NCBI GenBank assembly: GCA_003151515.1
Contig: PLXS01000005.1
Span: 1-64,000 of the forward strand
Reading direction: 5' to 3'
Length of the DNA stretch: 64,000 nucleotides
Origin: Opitutaceae bacterium
GTDB taxonomy: Bacteria; Verrucomicrobiota; Verrucomicrobiia; Opitutales; Opitutaceae
Shown here: piece by piece, positions 22,459-57,414 of the stretch
Position numbering within the stretch: position 1 is the first letter of the stretch
Layout of the letters: the number at the start of each line of letters is the position of its first letter
Notes under the pieces: generated by a model
Databases searched by the model: none
What the model was told of the DNA's origin: nothing
The model's input: only the letters and a program-made list of their open reading frames with translations
Translations under genes and position numbers: made by a program

Positions 22459-25335
22459 ATGACTGACGCTGTGCCTCCCCGCGATAGGCCCCCGCTGCTT
22501 GCCAGGGCGGGGGACCGGGTAGCCCTTGGCGCGGCGCTCTTGGCGGTGCTCTCGTTTTACTACTGGACGGCGGCCACGAGCGACGGCCTGCCCCCCTGGC
22601 CGATGGGAAAGGCCCAGTATAGCGACTACTACAACCTGCTCCTGCATGGGTTTCTGAAAGGGCACCTGTACCTCGACGTCCCGGTGGACCCGGCGATGCT
22701 TGCCGCGAGCAATCCCTATGATGTGCGCGTGTGGGTTCCCCATGGCTGGATGCTCGACGCCAGTTTCTACCATGGGCACTACTACGTGTACTACGGGGTG
22801 GTCCCGGTGCTCGTGTTCATGCTTCCGTTTCGGCTGCTGACGGGAGGGGACCTGTGGCTCGGCGCGGCCGGCGAGTCCGCGGCAGTCCTCGCTTTCCTGG
22901 CGCTTGCCTGGCTCTGGCTCAGGATCCGCCGGGACTATTTCCCGCGCTGCGGCGCCGTGATCGTCTTCGCATCAGTCATGGCGCTGGGCCTGGCGACCGG
23001 ACTGCTTTCGATCGCGAGGCGCCCGCTGATGTACGAGTTCGCCATCGCAAGCGGATGCCTCTTTGCGACCCTGATGCTCCACAGCCTGTATTCGGCGCTC
23101 TCGTCGGAGCGGAGGTCCGCCTGGATGGCGCTCGCCGGCGCCTTCCTGGGCCTCTCCGTCGGCTGCCGCCCCACGTTTCTGCTGGCGATCCTGGCACCCG
23201 CCTGGGTGCTCTGGAGCCTCCTGCGCCAGGATCGCCCGGGGATTCTCCCGCTGTGGACCCCGGGGCGGTCGGCAAGGCCGGTGATGGGGTTCGCCGTTGG
23301 GTTTGGTGCGATCTTCTCCGGGCTGCTCCTCTACAATTACCTGCGTTTCTCGAACTTCCTGGATTTCGGATACGGCTACCTGCTGCAGGACCCGGTTGCC
23401 GACCTGAAGCACGTTTGGAGCCCCTCGTACTTCCTGTTCAACCTGCGCCTCTATTATGTCGGCTCCCTCGAGTGGTCGCGGCATTTCCCGTTTGCCACCA
23501 TGGGCCCCCTCCCCAAGTGGCCGCAGCATTACTACGGGTGCGCCGACATCTACGGGATCCTGAAGTACGCGCCGGTTGTCTGGTTCCTGCTGGCGAGCCC
23601 GCTCGCGCTGAGGCGCGGCCCGGCGCCGGGGCCCCGGCATTTCGCCACGGTGCTCGGAATGGTTGGCCTTGCGTATCTCGGACCAGCGGCCTGCGTCCTT
23701 TTCTTCAACAACACCGCGCTTCGCTACACGGTGGATTTCCTGCCCAACCTCGTCCTCCTGTCGACGCTCGGGGCGTGCGCGCTCGACCAGGCGGCGTCCC
23801 CTCCCCTCGCAAAGCGCGCCGCAAGGGCCGGCTGGCTCGTCGCGGCGGCCTTCTCCGCGGCCGTCGCGGCGGTTCTCAGCATTCCGCTTGAGGGATCCCT
23901 GACGGTTCACCGCGGCTACGGTTACTACGAGAAGGTGGCCCGGATTATGAACGTGCCCACATCCTGGTACGAGCGCGCTCGGGGCTGGTCCTACGGGCCG
24001 ATCACCTGGCGGATCGCGTTCCAGACGAGGCCTGCGCACACGGTCGAGAAGCTGGCGGAGACCCCGAACGCATCGCTCCTGCTGGAATACCTGCCTGACA
24101 GCCGGATTCGCCTGGGATTTCGGTGCGCCGGCGACGATTTCATTCTGTGGGGCGAGGGCGCAGGGGTCGTCCCCGGTCGCGCGAGCACGCTGTCGGCGTC
24201 GTTTGGCTCGCTGTATCCGACCACCGAGCATCCCTACTATCTGGGCTACCCGCCCAGCCCCATCAGCCGCTCGTCGGTGTACGTTGTCCTTGACGATCGC
24301 CCGGTGCTCGAGGGCCTACGCCCGCTAAACCCGGTTGACTGCAGGGATATTCACGTGGCCGGTGGCGAGGTTCGGCCCGGGTGGTTCTGCGGCAGCGTCC
24401 TGGGTGTCGCGCGGGGCAGGCTGCCGATCCGCGACATCACGCCGGATTTCGCGCCCCGGACCATCCGGCTCACCGTGCCCTCCAATGCGGGCTCGGGGCG
24501 CTGGCCGCTGGTGTCGGCGGGCTCTGCGGACGCCGGAGACCTGCTCTTCATGGAGGCCGCAGCCGGGGAAACCGCCCGCTTCGGGTATTTTTCAACGGGA
24601 TTCCCCTTGAGCTACGGGCCGCCGTTCCGGCTGGCGCCCGGCTCCTCGCTGGAATGCACCGTGCAGATGGAGCCGTTGGACCCTTCCGGCAGGATGCCGG
24701 GGCCGCCGCGCCCGCTGTTGATCGAGAAGGACGGCCGGACCAACTGGGTGAGCAGCGCTCCCTATCATCCCTGCGCGGCCGGCGCCGTCCGCCTCGGCGA
24801 AAACACGGTGTCGGCGTCGCTCGTCGAGGGAAGGTTCCCCGGAAGGATCGAATGGGCCGGGACCCAGCCCCGCCTCCTGCCGGCGGAGCCGACCGACCAC
24901 CTTCTCCTGCGCGTTGTCTTTCCCGCCCAGCCCCGATGGGGCCTGAGGGAACCCCTTCTGTTCACCGGCGTTCAGGGCTCAGGCGATCGCATCTGCGTGG
25001 TTCACTACGGCAACGGAAGCGGCCGCTTCGTCTTGGATCACTGGGGCGTGCTCAATCAGGAGGGTCCGATCGTCGATACACTGGACAGCGAATCCCTGCA
25101 CGACATCGAGATCATCACGCCCGTCTTCTCCCTCTTTCGGGGATCCCGACATCCGGCGCGGGGAATTGTCGTCGTCAAGATGGACGCAAGGGAGGTGCTG
25201 CGCTTTGACTCAGACCTTTATCCCGCGCGGCTGGAAGAGGCCGTTGTCGGCCGGAATGACAACGGGGGGCCGACCGAGAGGCGGTTCCTGGGAGCCCTCC
25301 TCCTGCAGCGCTGGATCAGCGCCCCGGACCGCTGA
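22459..25335 (+). CDS. Large GT-C-like membrane protein, copy 1 of a tandem pair
   Basis: A 958-residue protein. The first about 480 residues hold roughly ten hydrophobic segments with loops rich in aromatic residues. The first long loop has YSDYYNLLLHG and YLDVPVDPAML, resembling the acidic active-site loop of PMT/ArnT-type glycosyltransferases that use polyprenyl-phosphate sugars. The remaining about 480 residues look like one or more periplasmic beta-rich domains. I cannot assign a named family. The adjacent gene is a close full-length paralogue. A role in decorating exported proteins or polysaccharide is inference. Confidence 0.7.
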   Translation: MTDAVPPRDRPPLLARAGDRVALGAALLAVLSFYYWTAATSDGLPPWPMGKAQYSDYYNLLLHGFLKGHLYLDVPVDPAMLAASNPYDVRVWVPHGWMLDASFYHGHYYVYYGVVPVLVFMLPFRLLTGGDLWLGAAGESAAVLAFLALAWLWLRIRRDYFPRCGAVIVFASVMALGLATGLLSIARRPLMYEFAIASGCLFATLMLHSLYSALSSERRSAWMALAGAFLGLSVGCRPTFLLAILAPAWVLWSLLRQDRPGILPLWTPGRSARPVMGFAVGFGAIFSGLLLYNYLRFSNFLDFGYGYLLQDPVADLKHVWSPSYFLFNLRLYYVGSLEWSRHFPFATMGPLPKWPQHYYGCADIYGILKYAPVVWFLLASPLALRRGPAPGPRHFATVLGMVGLAYLGPAACVLFFNNTALRYTVDFLPNLVLLSTLGACALDQAASPPLAKRAARAGWLVAAAFSAAVAAVLSIPLEGSLTVHRGYGYYEKVARIMNVPTSWYERARGWSYGPITWRIAFQTRPAHTVEKLAETPNASLLLEYLPDSRIRLGFRCAGDDFILWGEGAGVVPGRASTLSASFGSLYPTTEHPYYLGYPPSPISRSSVYVVLDDRPVLEGLRPLNPVDCRDIHVAGGEVRPGWFCGSVLGVARGRLPIRDITPDFAPRTIRLTVPSNAGSGRWPLVSAGSADAGDLLFMEAAAGETARFGYFSTGFPLSYGPPFRLAPGSSLECTVQMEPLDPSGRMPGPPRPLLIEKDGRTNWVSSAPYHPCAAGAVRLGENTVSASLVEGRFPGRIEWAGTQPRLLPAEPTDHLLLRVVFPAQPRWGLREPLLFTGVQGSGDRICVVHYGNGSGRFVLDHWGVLNQEGPIVDTLDSESLHDIEIITPVFSLFRGSRHPARGIVVVKMDAREVLRFDSDLYPARLEEAVVGRNDNGGPTERRFLGALLLQRWISAPDR

Positions 25336-25364: not shown

Positions 25365-28235
25365 ATGACTGAGGCAGAGCACCCCAAGCCAACGGCCCCT
25401 CTGCTGGCGACAAAGGGGGATTGGGTCGCCTTTGGCGTGGCGGCTCTGCTCGTCCTTTCATTCTACTACTGGACGGCCGCCACGAGCGATGGCCTCCCCC
25501 CCTGGCCGATGGGAAAGGCCTCGTACAGCGACTACTACAACCTGCTCCTGCATGGGATCCTAAAGGGGCATCTCTACCTCGACGTCCCGGTGGATCCGGC
25601 GATGCTGGCGGCAGCCGATCCCTACGATTCGCGGGTGTGGGTCCCCCATGGCTGGATGGTGGACTCCAGCTTCTACAGGGGGCACTACTACGTGTACTAC
25701 GGAGTGGTCCCGGTGCTCGTGTTCATGCTTCCGTTCAGGCTGCTGACGGGAGGTGATTTGTGGCTCGGAGCGGCCGTGGAGTCCACGGCCGTGCTCTGCT
25801 TCCTGGCGCTTGCCTGGCTCTGGCTCAGGATCCGCAGGGACTATTTCGCGCGCACCGGCGGTCCGATCGTTTTCGCGACAATCGTGGCGCTGGGCATGGC
25901 GACGGGACTGCTGTCGATTGCGAGGCACCCGCTGATGTACGAGTTCGCCATCGCAAGCGGATGCCTCTTTGCGACCCTGATGCTTCACAGCCTGTATTCG
26001 GCGCTCTCGTCCGGGAGGAGGTCCGCCTGGATGGCGCTCGCCGGCGTCTTCCTTGGGCTTTCCGTCGGCTGCCGCCCCACGTTTCTGCCGGCGATCCTGG
26101 CGCCCGCCTGGGTGCTCTGGAGCTTCCTGCGCCAGGATTGGCCAGGGGCCTCCCCGCTGCGGGCGCTGGGACAGTCGGCAAGGCCGGCGGCGGGTTTCAC
26201 CCTGGGGTTTGGGGCGATCTTTTCCGGTCTCCTCCTCTACAACTACCTGCGTTTTTCGAATTTCCTGGATTTCGGGTACAATTACCTGCTGCAGAACCCG
26301 CCTGCGGACCTGAAACACATCTGGAGCCCCTCGTACGTCTGGTTCAACCTCCGGCTCTACTACGCCGGCGCCCTTGGGTGGACGCGCCATTTCCCATTCG
26401 CCTCAATGGCCCCTCCCGCCGACCGGCCGCGGGGTTATTTCTCGTTCGGCGACCTCTACGGAATCCTGAAGTACGCCCCGGTTACCTGGTTCTTGCTGGC
26501 AAGCCCACTCGCACTGCGGCGCAGCCGGGGGCCCCGGCGTTTTGGCGCGGTTTTCGGCATGGTGGGCCTGGCCTATCTCGGCCCCGGAGCCTGCGACCTC
26601 TTCTTCGGGAACTCCGCGCTACGCTACACGGTGGATTTCCTGCCCAACCTCGTCCTGCTCTCGACGCTCGGGGCATGCGCGCTGGACCAAGCGGCCCCCT
26701 CGCAGCTGGCAAAGGGCGCCGTTCGGGCCGCCTGGCTCGCCGCAGCGACCTTTTCCGCGGCCGTCGCGGCGATTCTAAGCATTCCGCTTGCGGGATCCAT
26801 GACGGTTCACAGCGGCTATGCGTACTATGCAAAGGTGGCCCGGATCATGAACGTGCCGACCTCCTGGTACGAAAGCGCGAGGGGCTGGTCCTACGGGCCG
26901 GTCACCTGGCAGGTCGCGTTCCAGCCCAGACCTGCGCACACGGTCGAGAAGCTGGCGGAGACCCCGAACGCATCTCTCATCGTGGAGTATCTCCCCGACG
27001 AGCGGATTCGCCTGGGTTTGAAGTGCGCGGGCGACGACTTCGTGCTGTGGGGCGAAGGCGCCGATGTGGCCCGGGGCCGGGCCAGCACGCTGTCAGCGTC
27101 GTTTGGCTCGCTGTATCCGACAACCGAGCATCCCTACTACCTGAATCACGCGCCCAGCGCCATCAGCCGTTCGTCGATCTATGCTGTCCTGGACGATCGC
27201 CCGGTGCTTGAGGGCCTGCGCCCGCTCAACCCGGTCGACTGCAGGGATATTCGCGTGGCCGGCGGCGAGGCGCAGCCCGGATGGTTCTCCGGCAGCGTCC
27301 TGCGTGTCGCGCGGGACAGGCTGGCGGTCCGCGACATCACGCCCGATTTCACGCCCCGGACCATCCGGCTCTCCGTCCCAGCCAATCCGAAGCCTGGGCG
27401 CTGGCCGCTGGTGTCCGCGGGCTCCCCGGATCGCGGCGACCTGCTCTTCATGGAGGCCGCCGCCGGGGGCACCGCGCGCTTCGGGTATTTTTCGACGGGG
27501 TCCCCTCTGTTCTACGGCCCGCCCTTCGGGATCGAGCCCGGATCCTCGATGGAATGCACGGTGCAGATGGAGACGATGGACCCGTCCGGCAGGATGCCGG
27601 GGCCGCCGCGCCCGCTGCTGGTTGAGAGGGACGGCCGGACCAACTGGGTGAGCAGCGTTCCCTATCATCCCTGCGAGGCCGGCGCCGTCCGCCTCGGGGA
27701 GAACACGGTGGCGGCGCCTCTCGTCGAGGGATGGTTCCCCGAGAGGATCCAGTGGGCCGATACCCGCCCCCGCCTCCGGCCGGCGGAACCGACCGACCAT
27801 CTTCTCCTGCGCGTCGTCTTTCCCTCCCAGCCCCGATGGGGGCTGAGGGAACCCCTATTGTTTACCGGCGTCCAGGGAGCCGGCGATGGCATCTGCGTCG
27901 TGCACTATGGCAACGGCAGCGGCCGCTTCGTCCTGGATCACTGGGGTGTGCTCAATCAGGAGGGTCCGATCGTCGATACGCTGGACAGCGAGAGCCTCCA
28001 TGACATCGAGATCATCACGCCCGCCTTCTCCCTCTATCAGGGATCCCGCCTTCCGGCTCGGGGAACCATCGCGGTCAGGATGGACGGGAGGGAGGTGCTG
28101 CGTCTTGAGTCGGACATCTACCCCGCTCGGCTGGACGAAGCCGTCGTCGGCAGGAATGACAACGGCGGGCCGACCGAAAAGGAGTTCCTGGGGGCCCTCC
28201 TACTGCAGCGTTGGATCAGCGCCGGGCGAGAGTGA
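25365..28235 (+). CDS. Large GT-C-like membrane protein, copy 2 of a tandem pair
   Basis: A 956-residue full-length paralogue of the gene 29 bases upstream. Long blocks are identical at protein level (for example YYWTAATSDGLPPWPMGK and DHWGVLNQEGPIVDTLDSES) and often at DNA level. Differences are spread over the whole length. Topology is the same: about ten N-terminal membrane segments and a long periplasmic C-terminal half. Both frames are intact, so both copies are probably under selection. The pair is likely one transcript. Function is unassigned, as for copy 1. Confidence 0.7.
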   Translation: MTEAEHPKPTAPLLATKGDWVAFGVAALLVLSFYYWTAATSDGLPPWPMGKASYSDYYNLLLHGILKGHLYLDVPVDPAMLAAADPYDSRVWVPHGWMVDSSFYRGHYYVYYGVVPVLVFMLPFRLLTGGDLWLGAAVESTAVLCFLALAWLWLRIRRDYFARTGGPIVFATIVALGMATGLLSIARHPLMYEFAIASGCLFATLMLHSLYSALSSGRRSAWMALAGVFLGLSVGCRPTFLPAILAPAWVLWSFLRQDWPGASPLRALGQSARPAAGFTLGFGAIFSGLLLYNYLRFSNFLDFGYNYLLQNPPADLKHIWSPSYVWFNLRLYYAGALGWTRHFPFASMAPPADRPRGYFSFGDLYGILKYAPVTWFLLASPLALRRSRGPRRFGAVFGMVGLAYLGPGACDLFFGNSALRYTVDFLPNLVLLSTLGACALDQAAPSQLAKGAVRAAWLAAATFSAAVAAILSIPLAGSMTVHSGYAYYAKVARIMNVPTSWYESARGWSYGPVTWQVAFQPRPAHTVEKLAETPNASLIVEYLPDERIRLGLKCAGDDFVLWGEGADVARGRASTLSASFGSLYPTTEHPYYLNHAPSAISRSSIYAVLDDRPVLEGLRPLNPVDCRDIRVAGGEAQPGWFSGSVLRVARDRLAVRDITPDFTPRTIRLSVPANPKPGRWPLVSAGSPDRGDLLFMEAAAGGTARFGYFSTGSPLFYGPPFGIEPGSSMECTVQMETMDPSGRMPGPPRPLLVERDGRTNWVSSVPYHPCEAGAVRLGENTVAAPLVEGWFPERIQWADTRPRLRPAEPTDHLLLRVVFPSQPRWGLREPLLFTGVQGAGDGICVVHYGNGSGRFVLDHWGVLNQEGPIVDTLDSESLHDIEIITPAFSLYQGSRLPARGTIAVRMDGREVLRLESDIYPARLDEAVVGRNDNGGPTEKEFLGALLLQRWISAGRE

Positions 28236-29743: not shown

Positions 29744-31045
29744 ATGAAGAAGCATCCCCTACTGCCCTGCCTCGCCGCCGCCCTGCTCCTGGCCTCGGCC
29801 GCCCTGGCCCAGGAGCTTCCAACCGCGATTCCGGAGTCGGTCGGCCTGTCCCCGGAACGGCTCTCGCGGATCGCGACGGCCGTCCAGAGGGAGATCGACG
29901 CCAAGCGCATCGCGGGCATGGTCACGATGGTCGTGCGCCACGGGCGCGTCGTCTGGCTCGACGCGAGGGGGATGGCCGACGTCGAGCAGAAGAAGCCCAT
30001 GCAGAAGGACGCGCTGTTCAGGATATGCTCCATGACAAAGCCTATCACGAGCACGGCCGTCATGATGCTCTACGAGGAGGGGCGGTTCACTCTCGAGGAT
30101 CCTGTCTCGAGGTACCTGCCCGAGTTCAAGGACCCCAAGGTCCTTGTGAAGCCCGAGGCGGGCCAGCCGAACACGGTTGCGGCGCGCCGGGAGATCACGA
30201 TCCGCGACCTTCTCCGGCACACCTCGGGGCTCACCTACCAGTGGAACGAGGTCCTCGGGCAGAGGTATGTCGACGCCAACGTCGCCAGCGGGCTGTTGCA
30301 GTATGACGGCACCATCGCGGACAGCGTCAGGCGCCTGGCGGGCGTGCCGCTCCTCTTCAACCCGGGCGACCGCTTCGAGTACAGCCTCTCTGTCGACGTC
30401 CTCGGAAGGCTTGTCGAGGTCGTTTCCGGCGTGCCGTTCGACGAGTTCCTGCGCACACGCATCTTCGCCCCCCTGAACATGAAGGACACGTGCTTCTACG
30501 TGAGCGCGGCGCAGCAGCCGAGGCTCGCAACCGCCTACACCTATTATCCGGACCGGGGCCTCGGCCGGTTTCCCGACGCCCCCATTTCCGAGGGGACGAT
30601 GACGTACTCGGCAGACTACCCCTACAACGGCCCGAGGAAGCTCTTTTCGGGCGGCGCCGGGCTGTGCTCCACCGCGCGCGATTACGCCCGCTTCTGCCAG
30701 ATGATCCTAAACGGGGGCTCGCTCAACAATGTCCAGATCCTGAGCAGAAAGTCGGTCGAGCTCATGTCCCACGACCAGATGGGAAAGATCGAGCCCGAGA
30801 TGGGCTTCGGGCTCGGGTTTGGCGTCAGCGGCGTCAAGGCGCCCCTGGACGAGCTGGGCTCGCCCGGCGAGTTCGGCTGGGGTGGCTTCTTCTACACCAA
30901 GTTCAACATCGACCCGAAGGAGGACATGATCGTCATCTCCATGGGCCAGCTCCACCCGACGGGCGGCGTGGCCCTCGACATGGTGGTCCAGAACCTGGCG
31001 TACCAGGCCCTTGACCAGCTGTCCCGGCCGGGCGGCACCGACTAG
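29744..31045 (+). CDS. Secreted serine hydrolase, class C beta-lactamase/DD-peptidase fold
   Basis: A 433-residue protein with signal peptide (ends SAALAQ). The SxxK catalytic pair is S96 and K99 in ICSMTKP, with Y213 in FEYSLS as the YxN-type motif (Asn replaced by Leu). DLLRHTSGLTY is also typical of the family. Such proteins include esterases, D-aminopeptidases and DD-peptidases, and the substrate is not predictable. Its stop overlaps the stop of the convergent gene by 4 bases. Confidence 0.87.
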   Translation: MKKHPLLPCLAAALLLASAALAQELPTAIPESVGLSPERLSRIATAVQREIDAKRIAGMVTMVVRHGRVVWLDARGMADVEQKKPMQKDALFRICSMTKPITSTAVMMLYEEGRFTLEDPVSRYLPEFKDPKVLVKPEAGQPNTVAARREITIRDLLRHTSGLTYQWNEVLGQRYVDANVASGLLQYDGTIADSVRRLAGVPLLFNPGDRFEYSLSVDVLGRLVEVVSGVPFDEFLRTRIFAPLNMKDTCFYVSAAQQPRLATAYTYYPDRGLGRFPDAPISEGTMTYSADYPYNGPRKLFSGGAGLCSTARDYARFCQMILNGGSLNNVQILSRKSVELMSHDQMGKIEPEMGFGLGFGVSGVKAPLDELGSPGEFGWGGFFYTKFNIDPKEDMIVISMGQLHPTGGVALDMVVQNLAYQALDQLSRPGGTD

Positions 31046-31551
31046 GAGGAGTCGCCGCGCAGCGACTCGCGCGCCTCGCGGACCTCGAGCCTCAGGGCCG
31101 TGAGGGAAACCCATATGTCCCTCAGGAAGGTCACGAGCGCCGCCACGAGCAGCGCCATGGCCGCGAGGAACAGGAGCAGGATGACGCCGCCAAGGTCGAT
31201 GCGCAGGGTCGCCCCCACGAATATCGCGATCACCAGCGCCGAGGACGCCAGCATGCTCGACACGGCGTAGGTGAGCGAGAGGCGGACGATCTTCGCGCGC
31301 CGCCACGTCACCTCAAGATGGGCCTCGAGCTCGCGCCGCTCCGCCGGCTTGGCCTGCCGGATCTGGGAGGCGTAGATGCGCGTGCGGTCAATGATGCGCC
31401 CCATCCGGTTGGTCATGGTCAGCAGAAGCAGGCCCATGCCCGAGATCAGGATCACCGGCGCCGTCGCCAACTGGATGATCGGTAGGATTGAATTGGTCGG
31501 AAGGGAATCCACGCAAGTGGGAACACCAATCCCGTTGGCCGCCGGAAACAA
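31042..31551 (-). CDS. DUF2721-family membrane protein
   Basis: A 169-residue protein with an N-terminal hydrophobic segment (about 22-46), a basic cytoplasmic stretch with NRMGRIIDRTR typical of DUF2721, and two further hydrophobic segments (about 90-145). A short charged tail follows. Family function is unknown. It lies 29 bases downstream of the PLP enzyme gene on the same strand and may be the end of that long transcript. Confidence 0.8.
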   Translation of the reverse strand: MFPAANGIGVPTCVDSLPTNSILPIIQLATAPVILISGMGLLLLTMTNRMGRIIDRTRIYASQIRQAKPAERRELEAHLEVTWRRAKIVRLSLTYAVSSMLASSALVIAIFVGATLRIDLGGVILLLFLAAMALLVAALVTFLRDIWVSLTALRLEVREARESLRGDSS

Positions 31552-31580: not shown

Positions 31581-32723
31581 TCAGCCGAGCGCGGCCTCGA
31601 TGTCGGCGATCAGGTCAGCGGGGTCCTCGAGGCCCACCGACATCCGAAGGAGATCCGGGGGCGTCGTGCTCTGCGGGCCCTCGACGCTCGCGCGGTGCTC
31701 GACCAGGCTCTCGACGCCCCCGAGCGAGGTGGCCCGCTTCCAGACGCGCAGCCGGCCCATCGCCGCCAGGGCGCCCTGCGAGCCTCCCTTGACGCGAAGG
31801 GACATCATCCCGCCGAAGCCGCCCTTCATCTGGCGGGCCGCCACCGCGTGGCCGTCGAAGCCGGGCAGCCCCGGGTAGAGCACGGCCGCCACCCTCGGGT
31901 GCGCGGCGAACCGCTCGGCGATCGCCTGGGCGGCCCGGCTCTGGGCCGGCACGCGGGCGAAGAGCGTGCGCATGCCGCGCAGCAGGAGCCAGGCCTCGAA
32001 CGGCCCGAGGACAGCCCCGCCCTGGACGCGGACGGTCTTGATGCGCGCCCAGAGGTCGTCCTGCGCGCGCGTCGTCAGCGTTCCCGCGACCACGTCGGAG
32101 TGTCCGTTCAAGTACTTGGTCGCCGAGTGCATGACGATGTCCGCGCCGAGGGCTATCGGCTGCGTGTGGACAGGGGTGGCGAACGTCGAGTCGACGGCGA
32201 GCGTGGCCCCGGCCTTGCGGGCGACCCCGGCCAGCGCCTCGATGTCGGTAATGGCGAGCGTCGGGTTGGCCGGCGTCTCCGTCCAGATGAGCTTAGTGTG
32301 CCCGGGCCTCACGGCCGCCGCCACCACGGACGGCCTCGTCATGTCGACCTCCTCTATCCTGAGGCCCCAGGCCTCGGCCCAGTCGAAGAGCCAGCCCCGC
32401 AGCGCCCAGTAGATCACCCTCGGGACGAGGACGTGGTCGCCGGGCCTTAGCGCAAGGAATACCGCCGTCGCGGCGCCCATGCCCGAGGCGAAGACCGCCG
32501 ATGCCGCCCCCCCCTCCAGGGCCGTGATCACCGCCTCGACCTGGTCGTAGCTCGGATTGTCGGCCCGGGAATACAGGCGGCCGCCGAGGAGCCTGTTGTC
32601 GGCGTCCCTCTCGTAGGTCGTCGACGGGTGGACCGGCGGGACGATCGCCCCGGTCGCGGCGTCGACGAAGCCGAGGGCCTGCGCGGCCACTGTCGCTGGT
32701 CTCGTGTGTTCCGTCTGCCCCAT
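31581..32723 (-). CDS. Cys/Met-metabolism PLP enzyme, cystathionine gamma-synthase/beta-lyase type
   Basis: A 380-residue fold-type I PLP enzyme. The Schiff-base Lys is K203 in HSATKYLNGHSD, and the ring-stacking Tyr and Arg are in YSRADNP. Length and N-terminus fit MetB/MetC rather than the longer O-acetylhomoserine sulfhydrylases. Members exchange or eliminate the gamma or beta substituent of homoserine esters, cystathionine or Met; the exact reaction is uncertain. It starts 41 bases after the binding-protein gene, so it probably belongs to the RuBisCO-like gene run. That hints at sulfur amino acid work there. Confidence 0.88.
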   Translation of the reverse strand: MGQTEHTRPATVAAQALGFVDAATGAIVPPVHPSTTYERDADNRLLGGRLYSRADNPSYDQVEAVITALEGGAASAVFASGMGAATAVFLALRPGDHVLVPRVIYWALRGWLFDWAEAWGLRIEEVDMTRPSVVAAAVRPGHTKLIWTETPANPTLAITDIEALAGVARKAGATLAVDSTFATPVHTQPIALGADIVMHSATKYLNGHSDVVAGTLTTRAQDDLWARIKTVRVQGGAVLGPFEAWLLLRGMRTLFARVPAQSRAAQAIAERFAAHPRVAAVLYPGLPGFDGHAVAARQMKGGFGGMMSLRVKGGSQGALAAMGRLRVWKRATSLGGVESLVEHRASVEGPQSTTPPDLLRMSVGLEDPADLIADIEAALG

Positions 32724-32764
32724 GCGCTCCGATCAAACGCAGGTCCGCCCCAAAGGCAACCCGG

Positions 32765-33871
32765 TCATGGCCGCATGGTCTCGACAAAGACCAGGCGGCC
32801 GTTCCTCACGGTGATGATCGCCGCGTCCTTGTCCGCGTCGCGCCTCGCGTTGATCGTCGTGCGCCCCGTCACCCCGGGGAAGTCCCGGGTCGCGGCGAGC
32901 GACCTGCGAAGCGCCGCCCTCTGCGTCGTCCCCGCCCGCTCGATGGCGTCGGCGACCAGCCTGACCGAGTCGTACGTGAGCGCCGCCAGGCCGTTCGGCG
33001 CGGACCCGTAGCGCGCGCTGTAGGCGGCCACGAAGGCCCTCGACGCCTGGTCGGTGTTCTCCGTCGCGAAATGGGTCGCGTAGTAGGCCCCCTCAAGGGC
33101 CGCACCGCCGATCTCCAGAAGCTGCGGCGCCTCGAACCCGTCCCCGCCGAGGAGGGTCGCGTTCAGGCCGAGCTCTCTTGACTGGCGCGCGACGAGGCCG
33201 GCCGCGACGTAGTAGCCCGGCAGGAACACCGCGTCGGGCCCCGCCGCGCGGATCGCGGTCAGCTGCGCCCGGAAGTCCGTAGTGGCGCCCGAGTACTTCT
33301 GGCTGGCGACGATTTCGCCGCCCAGCGCCCTGAAGGTCCTCGAGAAGTAGTCCGCCAGGCCGACGGAGTACGGCGCCGAGGCGTCGATGAGGAGCGCGGC
33401 CCGCTTCAGCCCCAGCCGGCGCCGGGCGAAGGTGGCGATCACCTCCCCCTGGAACGAGTCGACGAAGCACACGCGAAAGACCGCGTCGCCGACCTCGGTC
33501 ACCTTGGGGCTCGTCGAGGCTGGCGTCACCAGCGGCACCCCGGCGGCCTGCGCGATCGCGGCCGCCTCCAGGGTCCGCGCCGAGGAACACTCCCCGATCA
33601 GCGCGGCCACCTTGTCGCGCGAGATGAGCTTTTTCACCGCCGTCGCCGACTCCCCGGGGAGCGACCGGTCGTCCTCGACGATAAGCGCCACCGGCCGGCC
33701 GAGCACCCCTCCCCCGGCGTTTATCGAGTCGACCGCGAGGCGCGCGCCGTTGAGCGAGGCCTCGCCGAAGGAGGCGTCCCTTCCGGTGATCGACATGAAG
33801 AAGCCGAGCTTCACGGGCTCCGCGCCGAGGGCGGAGGCGGCACACAGGGCAAGCAGCACCCGCAGCCTCAC
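32765..33871 (-). CDS. Periplasmic binding protein, Leu/Ile/Val-type (Peripla_BP_6)
   Basis: A 368-residue substrate-binding protein. A short signal peptide (LLALCAASALGA) precedes KLGFFMSITGRDASFGE, the standard start of branched-chain amino acid/amide/urea-type binders, followed by GECSSARTLEAA and VPLVTPASTSP. The start is a GTG at 33871, 5 bases after the cupin stop. No ABC permease or ATPase gene is nearby, so it is an orphan that must use a transporter encoded elsewhere or act as a sensor. Confidence 0.88.
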   Translation of the reverse strand: MRLRVLLALCAASALGAEPVKLGFFMSITGRDASFGEASLNGARLAVDSINAGGGVLGRPVALIVEDDRSLPGESATAVKKLISRDKVAALIGECSSARTLEAAAIAQAAGVPLVTPASTSPKVTEVGDAVFRVCFVDSFQGEVIATFARRRLGLKRAALLIDASAPYSVGLADYFSRTFRALGGEIVASQKYSGATTDFRAQLTAIRAAGPDAVFLPGYYVAAGLVARQSRELGLNATLLGGDGFEAPQLLEIGGAALEGAYYATHFATENTDQASRAFVAAYSARYGSAPNGLAALTYDSVRLVADAIERAGTTQRAALRRSLAATRDFPGVTGRTTINARRDADKDAAIITVRNGRLVFVETMRP

Positions 33872-33876
33872 GGCGC

Positions 33877-34329
33877 CTAGACCCGTATGAACGCCCCGAC
33901 GCTCGCGTCGGCGCGCAGGGACGCCAGCTCGCCGGCGGTGGGCCGTTGGGGGCGGTCCCGGTCCCGGCGCACGAGGCAGAGGAAGCCGAGCGCCTCCTCG
34001 TCCGTCGCGCGGAACTGGTGCCAGGTGAGCGGGGGGATGTAAACCAGGCTGTGCTGCCCAAGCTCGTGGATCTCGCGCCCCACCAGGGCGCGCCCGCGGC
34101 CCCGCACGACCATGACGCAGTGCACGTGGCCGTGGCGCTCCAGGGTCGAGTGGCCGCCCGGGGCGATTTCGAAGTAGCGCAGCTCGGCGCCCGCCTGCTC
34201 GCCTCCGCCGAAGAGCACCTGGCGGGTGACGGACTTGAAATGCGTCCCGTCCTCCTCCTTGTACGCCAAGAGCGGCACGTTCTCCCAGCGGAACGGCTCG
34301 GTCTGGCGGATGTGGGTCTTGCGCTTCAT
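33877..34329 (-). CDS. Cupin-domain protein next to RuBisCO-like protein
   Basis: A 150-residue single-domain cupin. The first metal motif is in GGHSTLERHGHVHC (H66, H68 and possibly H70) and the second His is H104 in PPLTWHQF. Cytoplasmic, no signal. The ATG at 34329 overlaps the RuBisCO-like stop (ATGA), so the pair is translationally coupled. In Rhodospirillum a cupin next to a RuBisCO-like protein releases methanethiol from 1-methylthioxylulose 5-phosphate to give deoxyxylulose 5-phosphate. That role here is a hypothesis, because many cupins do other chemistry. Confidence 0.82.
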   Translation of the reverse strand: MKRKTHIRQTEPFRWENVPLLAYKEEDGTHFKSVTRQVLFGGGEQAGAELRYFEIAPGGHSTLERHGHVHCVMVVRGRGRALVGREIHELGQHSLVYIPPLTWHQFRATDEEALGFLCLVRRDRDRPQRPTAGELASLRADASVGAFIRV

Positions 34330-35435
34330 CTGCCGTAGCCGAAAGCCTGCACGGACTCGGCGAACTGTCGACACCGCGCGACAAGAGTGTCCTCCGCGGG
34401 CTCTATGAGCCCGCCGCCGATGAGCAGCATCGTGTCCGCCCCGTAGGCGGCGAGAACCTCCGGAACGCGCTCCGGCCTGATGCCCCCCGCCGGGACGGGC
34501 ATGGCCGGCGCGATGGCCGAGCGCGGGGTGCGCAGCAGCCGCGCGATCTCGGCGCAGGTCTCGCGGCTGAAGCTGAAGCGCCCGCCCGCGTTCGGATAGA
34601 TGACCGCGTCCGCTCCGTAGAGCGGGAAAAGAACGCCAAGGAGCACCTCCGGGTGGATGCGCCGCACCCCGACCAGCGCCGGGTGCGCCAGCACCACCAT
34701 ACCGAGGTCGCGCACGAGCTCGGCGACGACGGGAAGCCCGAGGACCATCGGCGACAGGACCACGGCCCGGGCGCCCAGCCCCCTCGCCTCCTCGGCCTGG
34801 CGCATGACCGCGGACGGGCCTCCAATGAGGTTGGGCGCATACACGGAGCGCCTTCCGGTCTCCTGCGCCGCCCGCGCCGTGGCGTCCAGGCAGGCCCGGA
34901 TCCGCTCGCCGAACGGGCAGAAGGCGTGGTCCGCGAGGCCGTGGTCGTCCTTGATGACGTCAATGCCGCCGAGCGCGAACGCCCGGCACATCCCGCCCGC
35001 CTGCTGCGCGGACAGCCCCATCGGCTTGATCGCCGTCGCCGTGAGCGCCCGCCCCGAGACGCCCGCCACCGTGCGAAGGCCGGCGATCCCGAAGCGCGGT
35101 CCGCCGAGGGCGCGCGCGAGCGCCGGGGGCACGCGCACGTCCTCGAGCTCGACGTCGGGCTGGAGCGAGGAGTTGCCGAAGACGACATTGAGCAGCTGCG
35201 CGGGGTCGCCCCCGGTCGTCGCCTCGGGCTGCTCGATCGTGACGCGATACTCGCCCTCGCCGACCGGCGCCGTCGAGACGACCCGCCCGACCATCTCCCT
35301 TCGCACGAAGTCCCAGCGCAGCGCCGAGCGCGGCAGCTCGACCGTCTGCTCCAGGAGCAGCGCCTCGGCCCGGCTCTCGAGCGCTTCGGCGGATGTCCGC
35401 ACCCGGTAGACGATCTCGACCGCGTCCCCGTTCAT
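34326..35435 (-). CDS. RuBisCO-like protein (form IV)
   Basis: A 369-residue homologue of the RuBisCO large subunit, shorter than true RuBisCO (about 470). The active-site scaffold is visible: K137 in TATAIKPMGLS (position of K175), then K162-D163-D164-H165 in GGIDVIKDDHG (positions K201-E204), GGRF at 284-287, PAGG at 315-318 and IGGG at 339-342. H165 replaces the metal-binding Glu204 and the loop-6 Lys region is absent, so CO2 fixation is not expected. Known form IV roles are enolase or isomerase steps in methionine salvage and reactions in apionate-type sugar-acid catabolism. It overlaps both neighbours by 4 bases. Confidence 0.92.
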   Translation of the reverse strand: MNGDAVEIVYRVRTSAEALESRAEALLLEQTVELPRSALRWDFVRREMVGRVVSTAPVGEGEYRVTIEQPEATTGGDPAQLLNVVFGNSSLQPDVELEDVRVPPALARALGGPRFGIAGLRTVAGVSGRALTATAIKPMGLSAQQAGGMCRAFALGGIDVIKDDHGLADHAFCPFGERIRACLDATARAAQETGRRSVYAPNLIGGPSAVMRQAEEARGLGARAVVLSPMVLGLPVVAELVRDLGMVVLAHPALVGVRRIHPEVLLGVLFPLYGADAVIYPNAGGRFSFSRETCAEIARLLRTPRSAIAPAMPVPAGGIRPERVPEVLAAYGADTMLLIGGGLIEPAEDTLVARCRQFAESVQAFGYGR

Positions 35436-37021
35436 GCGTCCGCGGGCCTGCGGCCCAGAACCGAGAGGATCGCTATCACGGCGGCCAGCGCGACGTAGGA
35501 GGCCGTGAACTGGAACGCGAGCGTACGCGCGGTGCCGGACAGCGTCCACGGCAGGTACAGCCCCCCGCTCGGCTCTACGGAATGGATGACGCCGAAGAGC
35601 GCAAGCGCCGCCCCCGAAAGCAGCACCGCTAGCGCCGCGCGCGTCCTCCCGTCAATCAGCGCGGCCAGGAACGCGGCCCAGATCATCGACGTGATGATGA
35701 AGCCGTTGCCGAGGGTCACGATCACGCCCAGCTCCGGCAGCCCCCCTTCCGTCGAGGCGAGCAGCCGCTCGAAGCGCTCGGGCGGTACGTAGGTCGGGTC
35801 GCCCAGCTTGATGGCCACCATCCGCGCGATGGCCGGGAAAAAGCTGAAGACGACGGCCGCCGCGTGGTGCGGCGGCGTCGCCTCGAAGGCCTGGGCCGTG
35901 ATGTCGATCGCGATGAAGACCAGGATCGGGGCCAGCACCGCGAGGGGGACAAGCTCGACCAGGTTGGAGAGGTACCCGAAGACGCCGCCAAGGCCGACGA
36001 ACACGCCCGTGAGGAGGGTGTAGCCGGCGCGCGCCCCCATCCTCTTGTACGCGGGGTGCCCGATGTAGGGCGTGGTCTGGGCGACTCCGCCGCAGACGCC
36101 CGCGATCAGCGTGGCGAATGCCTCGGTGAGGAGGATGTCGCGCGTGCTGTAGTCGTCGCCGGCGGCGCGCGCGCTCTCGGCGACGTTGATCCCTCCGATG
36201 ACCATGAGAAGGCCGAAGGGCAGGATGAGGGGCAGGTACGGCGCCGTCGCGGCTAGGCCGTCGACGAAGCCCAGCGTCGGCAGCGGCAGCGCGAAGCGCA
36301 GCGCCAGCGCCCCGGGCGCGTGGTAGCCCGGGCCCGCGAGGCCCAGGGGTCCCAGCGAGTAGTAGAGGGCCGTGCCGACGAGGAATGCCGCCAGGACCCC
36401 GGGGACGTTGCCGGGCAGCCTGCGCTTCGCCGCGACCGCGTAGAGGACGACGCCCAGGCCGACGAAGCCGACGATGGGGATGCGCAGCAGCTCCACGATC
36501 GGGATGAAGCCGATAAGCATGAGGGCTATCCCCGCAATCGACCCCAGCAGGCCCGCCCGCGGGATCACGCGCCCGATCCACGTCCCCGCGAAGGAGAGCA
36601 CGAATTTGAGGGCGCCCATCACGATCATCGCCGCCATGCCCATGTGCCAGGTGGCGATCGCCGCGGCGTGCTCGTCCATCCCCCCCTGCCTGAGCTTCGC
36701 GTACGCCGGCCCCAGGACGAGGAGGGCCATGCCGATCGTGGTCGGCGTGTCGATCCCGAGCGGCATCGCGGTCACCCCCTCCCTGCCCGTGCGCCTCGCC
36801 AGGCGCACCGCCATCCAGGTGTAGACGGCGTCGCCGACGAGCACGCCGAAGGCCGTGCCCGGGAACATGCGCGTGAACACGACGTCCGCCGGGAACTTGA
36901 AGAGCCCCACGAGGACGCTCGAGAGGAACGCCATCACCGCGAGGTTGTCGACCAGCAGCCCGAAGAACCCGTTGAAGTCGCCGGCGACGAACCAGCGGCG
37001 CGGGCTTGCCTGGGGGGTCAT
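35432..37021 (-). CDS. NCS2/AzgA-type permease
   Basis: A 529-residue transporter with about 12-14 hydrophobic segments. It starts FVAGDFNGFFGLLVDNLAV and carries the family-type MPLGIDTPTT and TPYIGHPAYKRMGAR segments. The nearest characterised relatives move purines (adenine, guanine, hypoxanthine) with protons. Its overlap with the RuBisCO-like gene (ATGA) suggests it imports, or recycles a by-product of, that enzyme's pathway. Adenine from methylthioadenosine would fit one model, but the ligand is unknown. Confidence 0.85.
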   Translation of the reverse strand: MTPQASPRRWFVAGDFNGFFGLLVDNLAVMAFLSSVLVGLFKFPADVVFTRMFPGTAFGVLVGDAVYTWMAVRLARRTGREGVTAMPLGIDTPTTIGMALLVLGPAYAKLRQGGMDEHAAAIATWHMGMAAMIVMGALKFVLSFAGTWIGRVIPRAGLLGSIAGIALMLIGFIPIVELLRIPIVGFVGLGVVLYAVAAKRRLPGNVPGVLAAFLVGTALYYSLGPLGLAGPGYHAPGALALRFALPLPTLGFVDGLAATAPYLPLILPFGLLMVIGGINVAESARAAGDDYSTRDILLTEAFATLIAGVCGGVAQTTPYIGHPAYKRMGARAGYTLLTGVFVGLGGVFGYLSNLVELVPLAVLAPILVFIAIDITAQAFEATPPHHAAAVVFSFFPAIARMVAIKLGDPTYVPPERFERLLASTEGGLPELGVIVTLGNGFIITSMIWAAFLAALIDGRTRAALAVLLSGAALALFGVIHSVEPSGGLYLPWTLSGTARTLAFQFTASYVALAAVIAILSVLGRRPADA

Positions 37022-37040
37022 GGCACGGCGTGGCCGGGCT

Positions 37041-37505
37041 TTAGAACGACACGTCCGCCGCCTCGTTGACGAGGAGGACCGACTGGTCGTGCCACTGCGC
37101 CTTCCAGGCGAGCCTAATCGCGTCTACGGCCGCCCGCTTCTCGGGCGTGTCCTCGTGGAGGATGACGAGCACCTTGGTGCGCAGGCGCGCGGGCCTGTCG
37201 CCGCTTCTGGCGAGCCACTGCCCGTACGCGTCGAACACCGTGAGCCCGTCCGGGAAGCGCGGGGTCACCTCGCGGTCGAGGAACGCCTGCCAGTCGGCCT
37301 CCTTGGCCCGGGCGCGGCCGTCCTGGGGCTGGCCGGCGAGGCCGACACCGAAGTACAGCTCGCTGCGCACCCAGCGCGCCGAGCCCGGCCGCCCGGCGTC
37401 GCCCTGCATGGCCGCGGTCGCGGCCGCCGGGGCGTCGGACGATCGGGCCGCGAGGCCCGCCGCGGCCAGCGCGGCGAGCATGAGTATCATTTTTTTCTTG
37501 GTCAT
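37041..37505 (-). CDS. Secreted DUF3574 protein
   Basis: A 154-residue protein with a short signal peptide (MTKKKMILMLAALAAAGLAA). The DUF3574 core is plain: RSELYFGVG, then WQAFLDREVTPRFPDGLTVFDAYGQW and a closing QSVLLVN. Function of the family is unknown. ATG at 37505 is chosen as the signal-peptide start. It sits 19 bases upstream of the permease gene in the same run, so it is probably co-transcribed. Confidence 0.82.
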   Translation of the reverse strand: MTKKKMILMLAALAAAGLAARSSDAPAAATAAMQGDAGRPGSARWVRSELYFGVGLAGQPQDGRARAKEADWQAFLDREVTPRFPDGLTVFDAYGQWLARSGDRPARLRTKVLVILHEDTPEKRAAVDAIRLAWKAQWHDQSVLLVNEAADVSF

Positions 37506-37525
37506 GGGAGCTGTCGCCGGGTTCC

Positions 37526-38032
37526 TCACGCAAGGCGCGCCTTGCGCGCCGTGATGATCTCGGTGTTCATCCCGCCCCAGTGCAGCCTGCCCTGGTAGCG
37601 GCCGTGCTCAATCTTGACGCACCGGTCCATGACGACCGCGAGGCCCGCCCGGGAGGCGATCTCGGCCGCCTCGAGGTTCACGAGCTTGAGCTGGAGCCAG
37701 AGCGCCTTGGCCCCGATGGCGACGGCATCGCGCGCGATGGCCGTGGCATCGGCGGCGGGCCTGAACACGTCGACGATGTCGACGGGCTCCGGGATCGCCG
37801 CCAGGCTCGGGTAGCACTTCTCCTCCATGATGGTGTCCGCCTTGGGGTTCACGGGGATGATCCGGTAGCCCAGCTTCTTGAGGTAGTTGGCGACGAACCA
37901 GCTCGCGCGCTGGGGGTCCGTCGAGAGGCCGACGACCGCGATCGTGCGCGCCTCGCGCAGGAGGCGCTGGATGACGTGCGGATCCTGGTAGAGCCGCTGG
38001 TGCTCGGCGCTCAGGGCCGAGTTGAGCGTCAC
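37526..38032 (-). CDS. CoA-binding domain protein (YccU-like)
   Basis: A 168-residue Rossmann-fold protein. The CoA-binding core is visible as TIAVVGLSTDPQRAS, then YRIIPVNPK and the later DRCVKIEHGR segment. YccU-type proteins are small cytosolic proteins of unclear role and are often encoded beside sulfhydrylase genes. The GTG at 38032 overlaps the upstream O-acetylhomoserine sulfhydrylase stop (GTGA), supporting translational coupling. Confidence 0.88.
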   Translation of the reverse strand: MTLNSALSAEHQRLYQDPHVIQRLLREARTIAVVGLSTDPQRASWFVANYLKKLGYRIIPVNPKADTIMEEKCYPSLAAIPEPVDIVDVFRPAADATAIARDAVAIGAKALWLQLKLVNLEAAEIASRAGLAVVMDRCVKIEHGRYQGRLHWGGMNTEIITARKARLA

Positions 38033-39357
38033 CGAGCAAGCAATGCCTGGTCCAGGTCCCATAGGAGGTCCTCAACGTTCTCCAGCCCGATTGAGAGGCG
38101 GATGAGCTCGGGGGCGACGCCGCCCTTCGCGAGCTCCTCGTCGCTCAGCTGCTGGTGGGTCGTCGACGCCGGGTGGATGACGAGGCTTCGCACGTCGCCA
38201 ATGTTCGCCAGGTGGGAGAAGAGCTGCAGCGCCTCGATAAAGACCCTTCCCCTCGCCCGGGCGCCCTCGCCCTTCTTCGCCCTGAGCCCGAAGGAGAACA
38301 CCGCGCCCGGCCCGCCGGGGAGGTACTTCCTTGCGAGCGCGTGGTCGGGATGGCTCGGCAGCCCCGCGTACGCCACCCAGGCGACCTCCCCGTGCCCCTC
38401 CAGGAACTGGGCGACCTTGAGGGCCGACGCCGTCTGCCTCTCCATCCGCAGCGAAAGGGTTTCGAGGCCCTGGATGAGCAGGAACGCGTTGAACGGCGAC
38501 AGGCACGCCCCGGTGTCGCGGATGGTCTCGGCCCGGGCCTTCATGAGGAAGCCGTAGTGGCCGAACGTGTCGTAGAAGCGCAGGTCGTGGTATGCCGCGG
38601 AGGGGGCCGCGATCGATGGGTAGCGGCTGAAGTCGAACTTGCCCGAGTCGAGGAGCACGCCGCCCAGGGCGGTTCCGTGGCCCCCCATGAACTTTGTGGC
38701 CGAGTGCACGATCAGGGTCGCCCCGTGCTCGATCGGCCTGCACAGGGCGGGCGTCGCCATCGTGTTGTCCACGATGAGCGGGATGCCGTGCGACGCCCCG
38801 AGGGCGGCAATCCGCCCGATGTCGAGGATCGCGCCGCGCGGGTTTCCGATCGTCTCGCCGTACAGGGCCCGGGTCTTCGGCGTGATCGCGGCCTCCCACT
38901 CGGCGATGCTCGATGGGTCGACGAAGCGCACCTGAAGGTTGAACTTCCTGAGCGTGTGCACGAGCTGGGTGATCGAGCCCCCGTAGAGCTGGGACGACGC
39001 CACGACCTCGTCGCCGGGCTCAAGCAGCGTCAGGAACGCGACCAGCTGCGCCGCCATGCCGCTCGCGGTCGCGACGGCCCCGGCCGCCCCCTCGAGCGAG
39101 GCGACGCGCTCCTCGAAGACCGCGGTGGTGGGGTTGCTGATGCGCGAGTAAATGTTGCCGAACTGCTTGAGCTCAAAGAGCTGGGCCGCCTGATCGGCGT
39201 CGTCGAACACGAAGGACGTCGTCTGGTATATCGGCACGGCCCTGGCCCCGGTGACCGCGTCGGGAATGTGGCCCGCGTGGACCATGCGGGTCTCGAAACC
39301 GAATTTGCGGGTCTCGGCCTTGTTGCTCATGTGCTGCGGAGAATCCAGATTTTGCAT
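38029..39357 (-). CDS. metY: O-acetylhomoserine aminocarboxypropyltransferase (sulfhydrylase)
   Basis: A 442-residue PLP enzyme that joins sulfide or methanethiol to O-acetylhomoserine, giving homocysteine or methionine. The Schiff-base Lys is K222 in HSATKFMGGHGT, and the family N-terminus is FETRMVHAGHIPDAVTGARAV. The length (about 430) and the segment after the Lys (GGVLLDSGKF) separate it from MetB/MetC. Starts at 39357 or 39330 (MSNKAET) are both possible. It heads the tightly packed run that includes the RuBisCO-like gene. A methanethiol-using enzyme there is what a methylthio-salvage route needs. Confidence 0.92.
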   Translation of the reverse strand: MQNLDSPQHMSNKAETRKFGFETRMVHAGHIPDAVTGARAVPIYQTTSFVFDDADQAAQLFELKQFGNIYSRISNPTTAVFEERVASLEGAAGAVATASGMAAQLVAFLTLLEPGDEVVASSQLYGGSITQLVHTLRKFNLQVRFVDPSSIAEWEAAITPKTRALYGETIGNPRGAILDIGRIAALGASHGIPLIVDNTMATPALCRPIEHGATLIVHSATKFMGGHGTALGGVLLDSGKFDFSRYPSIAAPSAAYHDLRFYDTFGHYGFLMKARAETIRDTGACLSPFNAFLLIQGLETLSLRMERQTASALKVAQFLEGHGEVAWVAYAGLPSHPDHALARKYLPGGPGAVFSFGLRAKKGEGARARGRVFIEALQLFSHLANIGDVRSLVIHPASTTHQQLSDEELAKGGVAPELIRLSIGLENVEDLLWDLDQALLAR

Positions 39358-57347: not shown

Positions 57348-57414
57348 CGCCCGGGGCCGAAGTTGGGCTGGCCGTCCGCGGCATCTGCCACTTGCATCGG
57401 CGCCGTCCCCGTTC

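Follow-up and report, generated by a model that had tools for sequence, protein, structure and literature searches.

An Eight-Gene Run with RuBisCO-like Protein and Cupin Genes in an Opitutaceae Bacterium as a Probable Part of a Methylthioadenosine–Isoprenoid Shunt

The analyzed window, a stretch of 64,000 nucleotides, comes from the genome of a bacterium taken to be a member of Opitutaceae, Verrucomicrobiota (3.6 Mb, 42 contigs, 92% complete; window on contig 33), and contains a run of eight open minus-strand genes packed in positions 31581–39357. As judged from sequence, this run in all likelihood encodes the distinguishing part of the methylthioadenosine (MTA)–isoprenoid shunt, as the original prediction had proposed, and the proposal is supported by the clade of the RuBisCO-like protein (RLP), by a cupin resembling Rru_A2000, and by the presence of mtnA, dxs and a gene for O-acetylhomoserine sulfhydrylase (OAHS). 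The shunt is a known two-enzyme shortcut by which a sulfur-containing waste product of S-adenosylmethionine yields an isoprenoid precursor and methanethiol. The catalytic and transport steps of such a shunt would be the following: a phosphorylase, or alternatively a nucleosidase together with a kinase, encoded elsewhere in the genome would convert MTA to methylthioribose-1-phosphate, and MtnA would form 5-methylthioribulose-1-phosphate, which the RLP would isomerize to 1-methylthioxylulose-5-phosphate. The cupin, acting with a thiol, would remove the methylthio group to give deoxyxylulose phosphate (DXP), the adjacent OAHS might recapture the methanethiol as methionine, and the permease and the binding protein encoded in the run might import or export MTA or one of its products.

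The RLP gene (34326–35435, minus strand) encodes a form IV protein of the DeepYkr type, which is proposed to be a 5-methylthioribulose-1-phosphate 1,3-isomerase. The protein matched the RuBisCO_large model (82.7 bits) and scored under every NCBIfam cut-off, including those of MtnW (138.1 of 513.6 bits) and OiaX (80.9 of 700 bits). Its closest solved structure was 3qfw (E = 7e-88), followed by MtnW-type structures (5e-42), while 2qyg and 1ykw, which we take to be Photo-type RLPs, ranked far lower, as did true RuBisCOs. The RLP loci of this study are the best 80 of 521 confirmed, and all counts over 80 loci refer to these. For the placement in a form IV tree, 50 of the 80 loci were chosen, with L144 and L149 excluded because of a stop in the stretch; the 61 rows comprised the loci and the window RLP, 3qfw, eight OiaX-like rows, a pair of MtnW-type structures and a single divergent second RLP, and the tree was built without Photo rows, NonPhoto rows and the RLP of Rhodospirillum rubrum. 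The window RLP grouped with six Opitutaceae rows (support 100/99) within a 50-row clade (100/99) that also included 3qfw and sequences from Meiothermus, Rhodospirillaceae, Rhodoplanes and others. The motif KDDH (162–165) was present in 50/50 rows of this clade, whereas Glu followed KDD in the OiaX-like row and the MtnW row compared (one each). The names of the clades rest on PMC5893883, where R. palustris (Rhodopseudomonas palustris) RLP1 is described with the cupin RPA2170, and on the NCBIfam OiaX model. The RLP of the Rhodopseudomonas locus L144 had an identity of 45% with the window RLP and was the best match of 3qfw among the locus RLPs (65%). A second, very divergent RuBisCO-like frame (27% identity, branch length 3.6) was detected, in addition to a DeepYkr-type RLP, in an Eremiobacterota locus (L122:4336-5226, minus strand).

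The cupin gene (33877–34329, minus strand, ATG start; a GTG at 34374 is also possible) encodes a Cupin_2 protein, for which the role of a 1-methylthioxylulose-5-phosphate methylsulfurylase is proposed. Its closest solved match was 3jzv, which is Rru_A2000, the methylsulfurylase of R. rubrum (E = 1.4e-50), followed by 3kgz (E = 5e-45), which shares 93% identity with a cupin from Rhodopseudomonas sp. BR0M22. Residues E79, H81, H83, H85, H119 and C133 (numbering from the GTG at 34374) were invariant in 26/26 rows of an alignment that included 23 of the 59 RLP-adjacent cupins. A cupin gene was found no more than 380 bases downstream of the RLP gene in these 59 of the best 80 loci, seven of them from the same genus, and the pairs occurred across many phyla. 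Consequently, the pathway itself is known, and the new lineage claimed in the original prediction holds for Opitutaceae but not in a wider sense, since a pair outside Proteobacteria (Meiothermus) is already in print (PMC4958253). The function of RLP and cupin relatives is known from work on R. rubrum and R. palustris (PMC4958253 and PMC5893883). Clustering of 4,278 open frames from the 80 loci, based on crude gene calling, yielded no recurrent extra neighbor of the pair, such as a possible reductase, that stood out across phyla; of the 32 families present in at least four of the 80 loci, most of those other than RLP and cupin were due to shadow frames, local synteny or generic ABC ATPases. In four verrucomicrobial loci of the same RLP clade (L085, L092, L093 and L094), no cupin was detected, and these RLPs perhaps act on another substrate, e.g., 5-deoxyribulose-1-phosphate. 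Two metagenome-assembled genome records titled Klebsiella pneumoniae (L099 and L136) contained DeepYkr-type RLP–cupin pairs, and their titles look mislabeled.

The sulfhydrylase gene expected in the run was borne out: the OAHS gene (38029–39357, minus strand; MetY/Met17 type), the most upstream of the eight, exceeded its subfamily cut-off (TIGR01326, 584.9 versus 495.1 bits). The last gene of the run (31581–32723, minus strand) encodes a pyridoxal phosphate (PLP) enzyme of the cystathionine gamma-synthase/lyase family (PF01053, Cys_Met_Meta_PP, 343.3 bits), a domain matched by two proteins of the run, namely, OAHS and this enzyme. The latter reached the cut-off of none of the 25 best-scoring NCBIfam models (of 48 matched) and matched the cystathionine gamma-synthases/lyases 8sf4 (E = 2e-91) and 3qhx (2e-87) over its full length. 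It differs from them in the motif ATSLGG, where the two cystathionine references have AESLG: Thr replaces the Glu before SLG in all nine readable of ten PLP proteins, including that of the window, and YWAL stands in 7/10 of them in place of the YGG of both references. The replaced Glu presumably binds cystathionine. The PLP enzyme is proposed to be a sulfur lyase or synthase of the shunt, and it may be the enzyme by which the methylthio group is released or used again. An RLP-less genome of the same genus, G012, retains an orthologue of this enzyme (L184:7957-9087, 72%) and mtnA, with no aldolase fusion beside mtnA.

The organization of the locus in relatives was analyzed in a same-genus sample of 13 draft genomes (64–98% complete), of which nine contained the RLP and four did not. 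A conserved core, together with REARRANGEMENT, was revealed: the RLP, cupin and PLP enzyme genes were consecutive in 8/8 same-genus loci, the PLP enzyme gene directly following that of the cupin. OAHS copies with an identity of 83–88% adjoined the RLP in all eight, where the OAHS and CoA-binding genes face away from the RLP core across a spacer of about 100 bases, unlike the single-strand run of the window. The CoA-binding gene followed OAHS in 7/8 loci, the eighth being cut by a contig end, and a DUF3574 gene was found near it in 5/8. Permease and binding protein genes were absent from all eight same-genus RLP stretches (9–18 kb); they formed a divergent pair in 6/7 relatives examined, G007 having the permease alone. 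A relative of window gene 57310–59355 was located beside them in 7/7 cases and one of 59371–60450 in 6/7, both window genes being, we assume, glycoside hydrolase genes. The permease and the RLP were on one contig in four genomes, about 19–35 kb apart. In the window, these two flanking genes abut (59355/59371), and the permease and binding protein genes bracket the RLP–cupin pair; therefore, the genome of the window joined two loci. Orthologues were found in RLP-containing versus RLP-less same-genus genomes in the ratio of 8/9 to 0/4 for the permease (79–83%; Fisher p = 0.007), 9/9 to 1/4 for the PLP enzyme (72–77%; p = 0.014) and 8/9 to 1/4 for mtnA (one being a 39-residue fragment at a contig end; p = 0.052), these p values being only indications because the genomes are related and draft.

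The permease gene (35432–37021, minus strand) encodes a multi-helix protein that is distantly NCS2-like. No family match at E ≤ 0.001 was found in Pfam or NCBIfam, nor a credible match in PDB, and a sub-threshold Pfam match was that of a molybdate transporter (15.6 bits, E = 0.021). In global hhalign comparisons, the permease profile matched AdeP/GhxQ with E = 5.8e-5 (probability 38%) and UraA/XanQ with 4.9e-4 (13%), while values of 0.59–0.97 were obtained with DauA, with UraA and XanQ taken singly and with two single sequences of unrelated proteins. In local mode, AdeP alone gave 3.7e-4 (36%) and GhxQ alone 0.022 (2%); unrelated two-sequence controls gave 0.26 (GntP pair) and 0.47 (mixed pair), and a control with true kin, Escherichia coli AzgA versus NAT members, gave only E = 0.0016 (16%). 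The structure model computed without an alignment had a predicted local distance difference test score (pLDDT) of 43.8. The permease is weakly similar by profile to the AzgA branch (AdeP and GhxQ) of the NCS2 nucleobase permeases, which is too weak for filing it there. The transporter of the E. coli dihydroxyacetone phosphate (DHAP) shunt operon, considered as a relative, is annotated as a GRP-family sugar transporter and is not this permease.

A permease paralogue (about 34%) was located directly downstream of a PNP_UDP_1 gene in nine same-genus genomes (e.g., L174:7937-10464), eight with the RLP and one without (G011). Eight of the nine paired genes were scanned, the ninth (G006) being left out because of a stop; seven exceeded the TIGR01704 cut-off for MTA/S-adenosylhomocysteine (SAH) nucleosidase (73.8 bits), and one reached 72.6. 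This pairing connects the family of transporters with the breakdown of MTA or SAH, although not with a particular substrate, and the permease is proposed to transport MTA, adenine or a compound related to them. It should be noted that methylthioribose carriers have already been reported (mentioned in PMC6302742, which points to a Bacillus paper), while no title naming a bacterial MTA carrier was found among the titles covered by the literature search for named MTA and methylthioribose carriers. The binding protein gene (32765–33871, minus strand, GTG start) encodes a LivK-like periplasmic protein (PF13458, Peripla_BP_6, 243.6 bits), with 3td9 as the closest solved structure (E = 6e-75).

In the relatives, the sequence TTTCTGCTTCC-N15-GTGTAGCGT was found upstream of the RLP gene near the start codon and was identical in 8/8 (20 positions at fixed spacing, e.g., L075:6958-6992), although the RLPs of these relatives are just 55–64% identical to that of the window. 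An element similar to ACAANGCAAAG was located farther upstream. The pattern MCAWNGCAAAG, which was written from the first spacer set and then met in the second, had 14 occurrences in 526,463 bases of sequence from the genus versus 1.5 expected from base composition: in six RLP/OAHS spacers, in four permease/binding-protein spacers and at four other sites. GCAAAG stood at the aligned place in all six permease/binding-protein spacers, with TTTCTNCTTCC downstream of it in two of them and a one-base-longer form in a third. These six spacers are homologous, so the sharing of the element counts as one event. Apart from its first half at the binding-protein gene of G002, the RLP promoter motif was found nowhere else in the examined loci; the upstream region of the mtnA operon had a different conserved stretch. 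No exact copies of the RLP motif or of the GCAAAG-type element were present in the window, where the RLP follows the permease. The common element suggests co-regulation of the RLP/OAHS and permease/binding-protein loci. Taken with the nucleosidase-paired permease paralogue, it indicates that two loci under apparently common regulation were brought together in the window, which speaks for transport related to MTA.

The search of the genome for the upstream and downstream genes of the shunt was partly successful: mtnA (401.1 bits, over the cut-off) and dxs (711.7 bits) were found, and mtnP was represented only by a sub-cut-off homologue. The window genome also contains a nucleosidase-like gene (TIGR01704, 79.3 of 73.8 bits; NF004079, 118.7 of 169 bits). 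On contig 2, mtnA is preceded by a gene for a class II aldolase–short-chain dehydrogenase fusion (NF006196, 1002.5 bits, cut-off 831; both genes at L068:8616-11635). The fusion gene adjoined mtnA in 6/7 RLP-containing same-genus genomes with an intact mtnA locus (the window genome, G000, and G002, G003, G005, G006 and G008), G004 having the RLP and mtnA with no fusion beside the latter; mtnA was cut in G010 and not found in G007. The fusion was beside mtnA in 0/8 others examined (the RLP-less G012 and seven other Opitutaceae, 1.5-kb flanks). Acireductone dioxygenase over the cut-off was found in 0/38 genomes, including all 13 of the genus (controls, 2/14 over the cut-off), with two weak sub-threshold matches, both outside the genus.

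Several observations weigh against the isoprenoid shunt. The MTA phosphorylase homologue reached 160 bits versus the TIGR01694 cut-off of 274.85, is sited elsewhere, presumably divergent from an apparent uppS-cdsA-dxr-rseP cluster, and also occurs in RLP-less genomes; thus, it is no pathway marker. All eight PNP_UDP_1 genes scanned were under the cut-off of NF004079, a model of the same activity (115–132 of 169 bits). No cupin was beside the RLP in 19/78 loci with room for one (two of the 21 cupin-less loci lack room), the mtnA-linked fusion would consume the same intermediate as the RLP, and the binding protein resembles amino-acid receptors. In addition, 0/13 same-genus genomes had a match to glutathione synthetase (PF02955) or to glutamate-cysteine ligase (PF04262) in a search that left aside PF04107, PF08886 and uptake; both families were found outside the genus (3/38 and 1/19 genomes, respectively) and in controls.

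According to one alternative, already named in the original prediction, the RLP would be an OiaX-type 3-oxo-isoapionate-4-phosphate decarboxylase and the run would serve the catabolism of apionate or of other sugar acids. RLPs resembling OiaX are frequent among members of the same order (L011, L012, L014, L018, L025 and L028 had OiaX as the best model with 338–394 bits in partial stretches), and a gene set that we take to be of the L-arabinose type lies 10 kb from the run; however, the eight OiaX-like rows formed a group of their own (100/97) outside the clade of the window RLP, which fell far short of the OiaX cut-off and has His instead of Glu after KDD, and mtnA is present in the genome. 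This identity fails by tree, profile and active-site residue and is highly improbable. An MtnW-type enolase of ordinary methionine salvage is equally hard to accept for the RLP: mtnA is present, and the protein scored 138 bits against the MtnW model and 183 against a second, related model whose cut-off is 409, but it did not reach the MtnW cut-off, the two MtnW-type rows split off at 100/99, the cupin of the run is Rru_A2000-like, and the lack of acireductone dioxygenase over the cut-off in the 38 genomes (mtnX was not part of that search) is not what such salvage predicts.

The two remaining alternatives concern the flux and the transporter genes and are weightier. The main flux might pass through the DHAP shunt, the fusion splitting 5-methylthioribulose-1-phosphate (or 5-deoxyribulose-1-phosphate) into DHAP and an aldehyde and reducing the latter, with the RLP–cupin pair as a minor or conditional branch. 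The position of the fusion beside mtnA and the operation of both shunts in R. palustris, reported in PMC5893883, argue for this, and the mtnA–fusion pair is possibly a DHAP shunt with a built-in aldehyde reductase. Nevertheless, the family of this aldolase (NF006196) is broad and bifunctional, the protein matches RhaD-type models as well, and its similarity to E. coli Ald2 is marginal (E = 0.003); G004 has the RLP and mtnA without the fusion, and the RLP–cupin pair would be left unexplained. Priority of the DHAP shunt, which is compatible with the isoprenoid shunt, is rather unlikely. Somewhat easier to entertain, although still the weaker option, is that the permease and binding protein genes are chance neighbors brought in by rearrangement, with unrelated cargo, e.g., amino acids or sugars. 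Their absence from the RLP stretches of the eight relatives, their place beside the presumed glycoside hydrolase genes and the LivK-like nature of the binding protein are consistent with chance, whereas the co-occurrence of the permease with the RLP, the shared spacer element and the nucleosidase-paired paralogue argue against it.

Returning to the isoprenoid shunt, the question of its thiol was considered. In R. rubrum, glutathione is the thiol with which the cupin acts, and for the subsequent liberation of methanethiol in model organisms a gamma-glutamyl cycle or a putative reductase is under discussion (both according to PMC5893883). Bacillithiol BshC was found in 0/13 same-genus genomes, so that three synthesis families of glutathione or bacillithiol gave no match in this sample; glutathione made by the cell itself is probably not the thiol of this lineage. 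PMC6302742 (section 12) already argued that different organisms must use different thiols, so the novelty lies not in this idea but in the lineage as a candidate and in its additional PLP enzyme gene. A speculative and quite doubtful extension is a glutathione-free shunt with its own supply line, in which the permease and binding protein would import MTA or related 5'-deoxynucleosides, the cupin would use cysteine or CoA, the PLP enzyme would cleave the methyl-disulfide adduct and OAHS would fix the methanethiol, while, by the same chemistry, 5-deoxyribulose-1-phosphate derived from 5'-deoxyadenosine would be converted by the RLP to DXP directly, without the cupin, and the aldolase–dehydrogenase fusion would take the overflow. 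A literature search combining deoxyribulose with deoxyxylulose, covering titles and abstract openings with most subscription journals outside its scope, found no description of such a conversion.

Compared with the shunt of R. rubrum and R. palustris (Rru_A1998/A2000 and RPA2169/RPA2170, respectively), the Opitutaceae run is similar in having a DeepYkr-type RLP followed by a methylsulfurylase-type cupin, and its genome in having mtnA, dxs and an OAHS sulfhydrylase. It differs in the clustering of the pair with OAHS and a second PLP enzyme and in the insertion of transporter genes; moreover, a clear mtnP is lacking and the two glutathione families were not found. As in the DHAP shunt (mtnK/mtnP-mtnA-ald2), mtnA stands next to a class II aldolase gene elsewhere in the genome, but here this aldolase forms a fusion with a short-chain dehydrogenase and has little resemblance to E. 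coli Ald2. Within the literature scope given above, no description of a DeepYkr RLP or an isoprenoid shunt in Verrucomicrobia was found. What is new is a variant in which the RLP–cupin pair shares its cluster with OAHS, with a conserved PLP enzyme and with a permease whose family is linked to MTA, in a lineage where no glutathione synthesis was detected. Such a lineage with its extra PLP enzyme offers concrete genes for the question of methanethiol release, and the family of the permease is a candidate for the transport of MTA or of products derived from it.

The layout described in the original prediction, eight minus-strand genes with gaps of 41 bases or less, was confirmed, with several 4-base overlaps and one 5-base gap. 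In the order of transcription, the genes encode OAHS, a CoA-binding (CoA_binding_2) protein (37526–38062, or from a GTG start at 38032, minus strand; PF13380, 141.1 bits), a DUF3574 protein (37041–37529, minus strand; PF12098, 111.7 bits), the permease, the RLP, the cupin, the binding protein and the PLP enzyme. OAHS and the CoA-binding gene overlap by 34 bases (4 with the GTG at 38032), the latter and the DUF3574 gene by 4, the permease and RLP genes by 4, and the RLP and cupin genes by 4 (ATG start) or 49 (upstream GTG), while gaps of 19, 5 and 41 bases separate DUF3574 from the permease, the cupin from the binding protein and the latter from the PLP enzyme, respectively. This packing suggests a single transcript. 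The ends of the run are not sharp because same-strand genes carry on at both sides, one 53 bases upstream, presumably GDSL-like, and one 29 bases downstream (31042–31551). No Rfam family reached its gathering score in the window or in the eight same-genus loci, and thus no known S-adenosylmethionine riboswitch is present there. Elsewhere in the window, the plus-strand frames 22459–25335 and 25365–28235 (958 and 956 amino acids, respectively) have a near-identical N-terminus and form an apparent tandem duplication.

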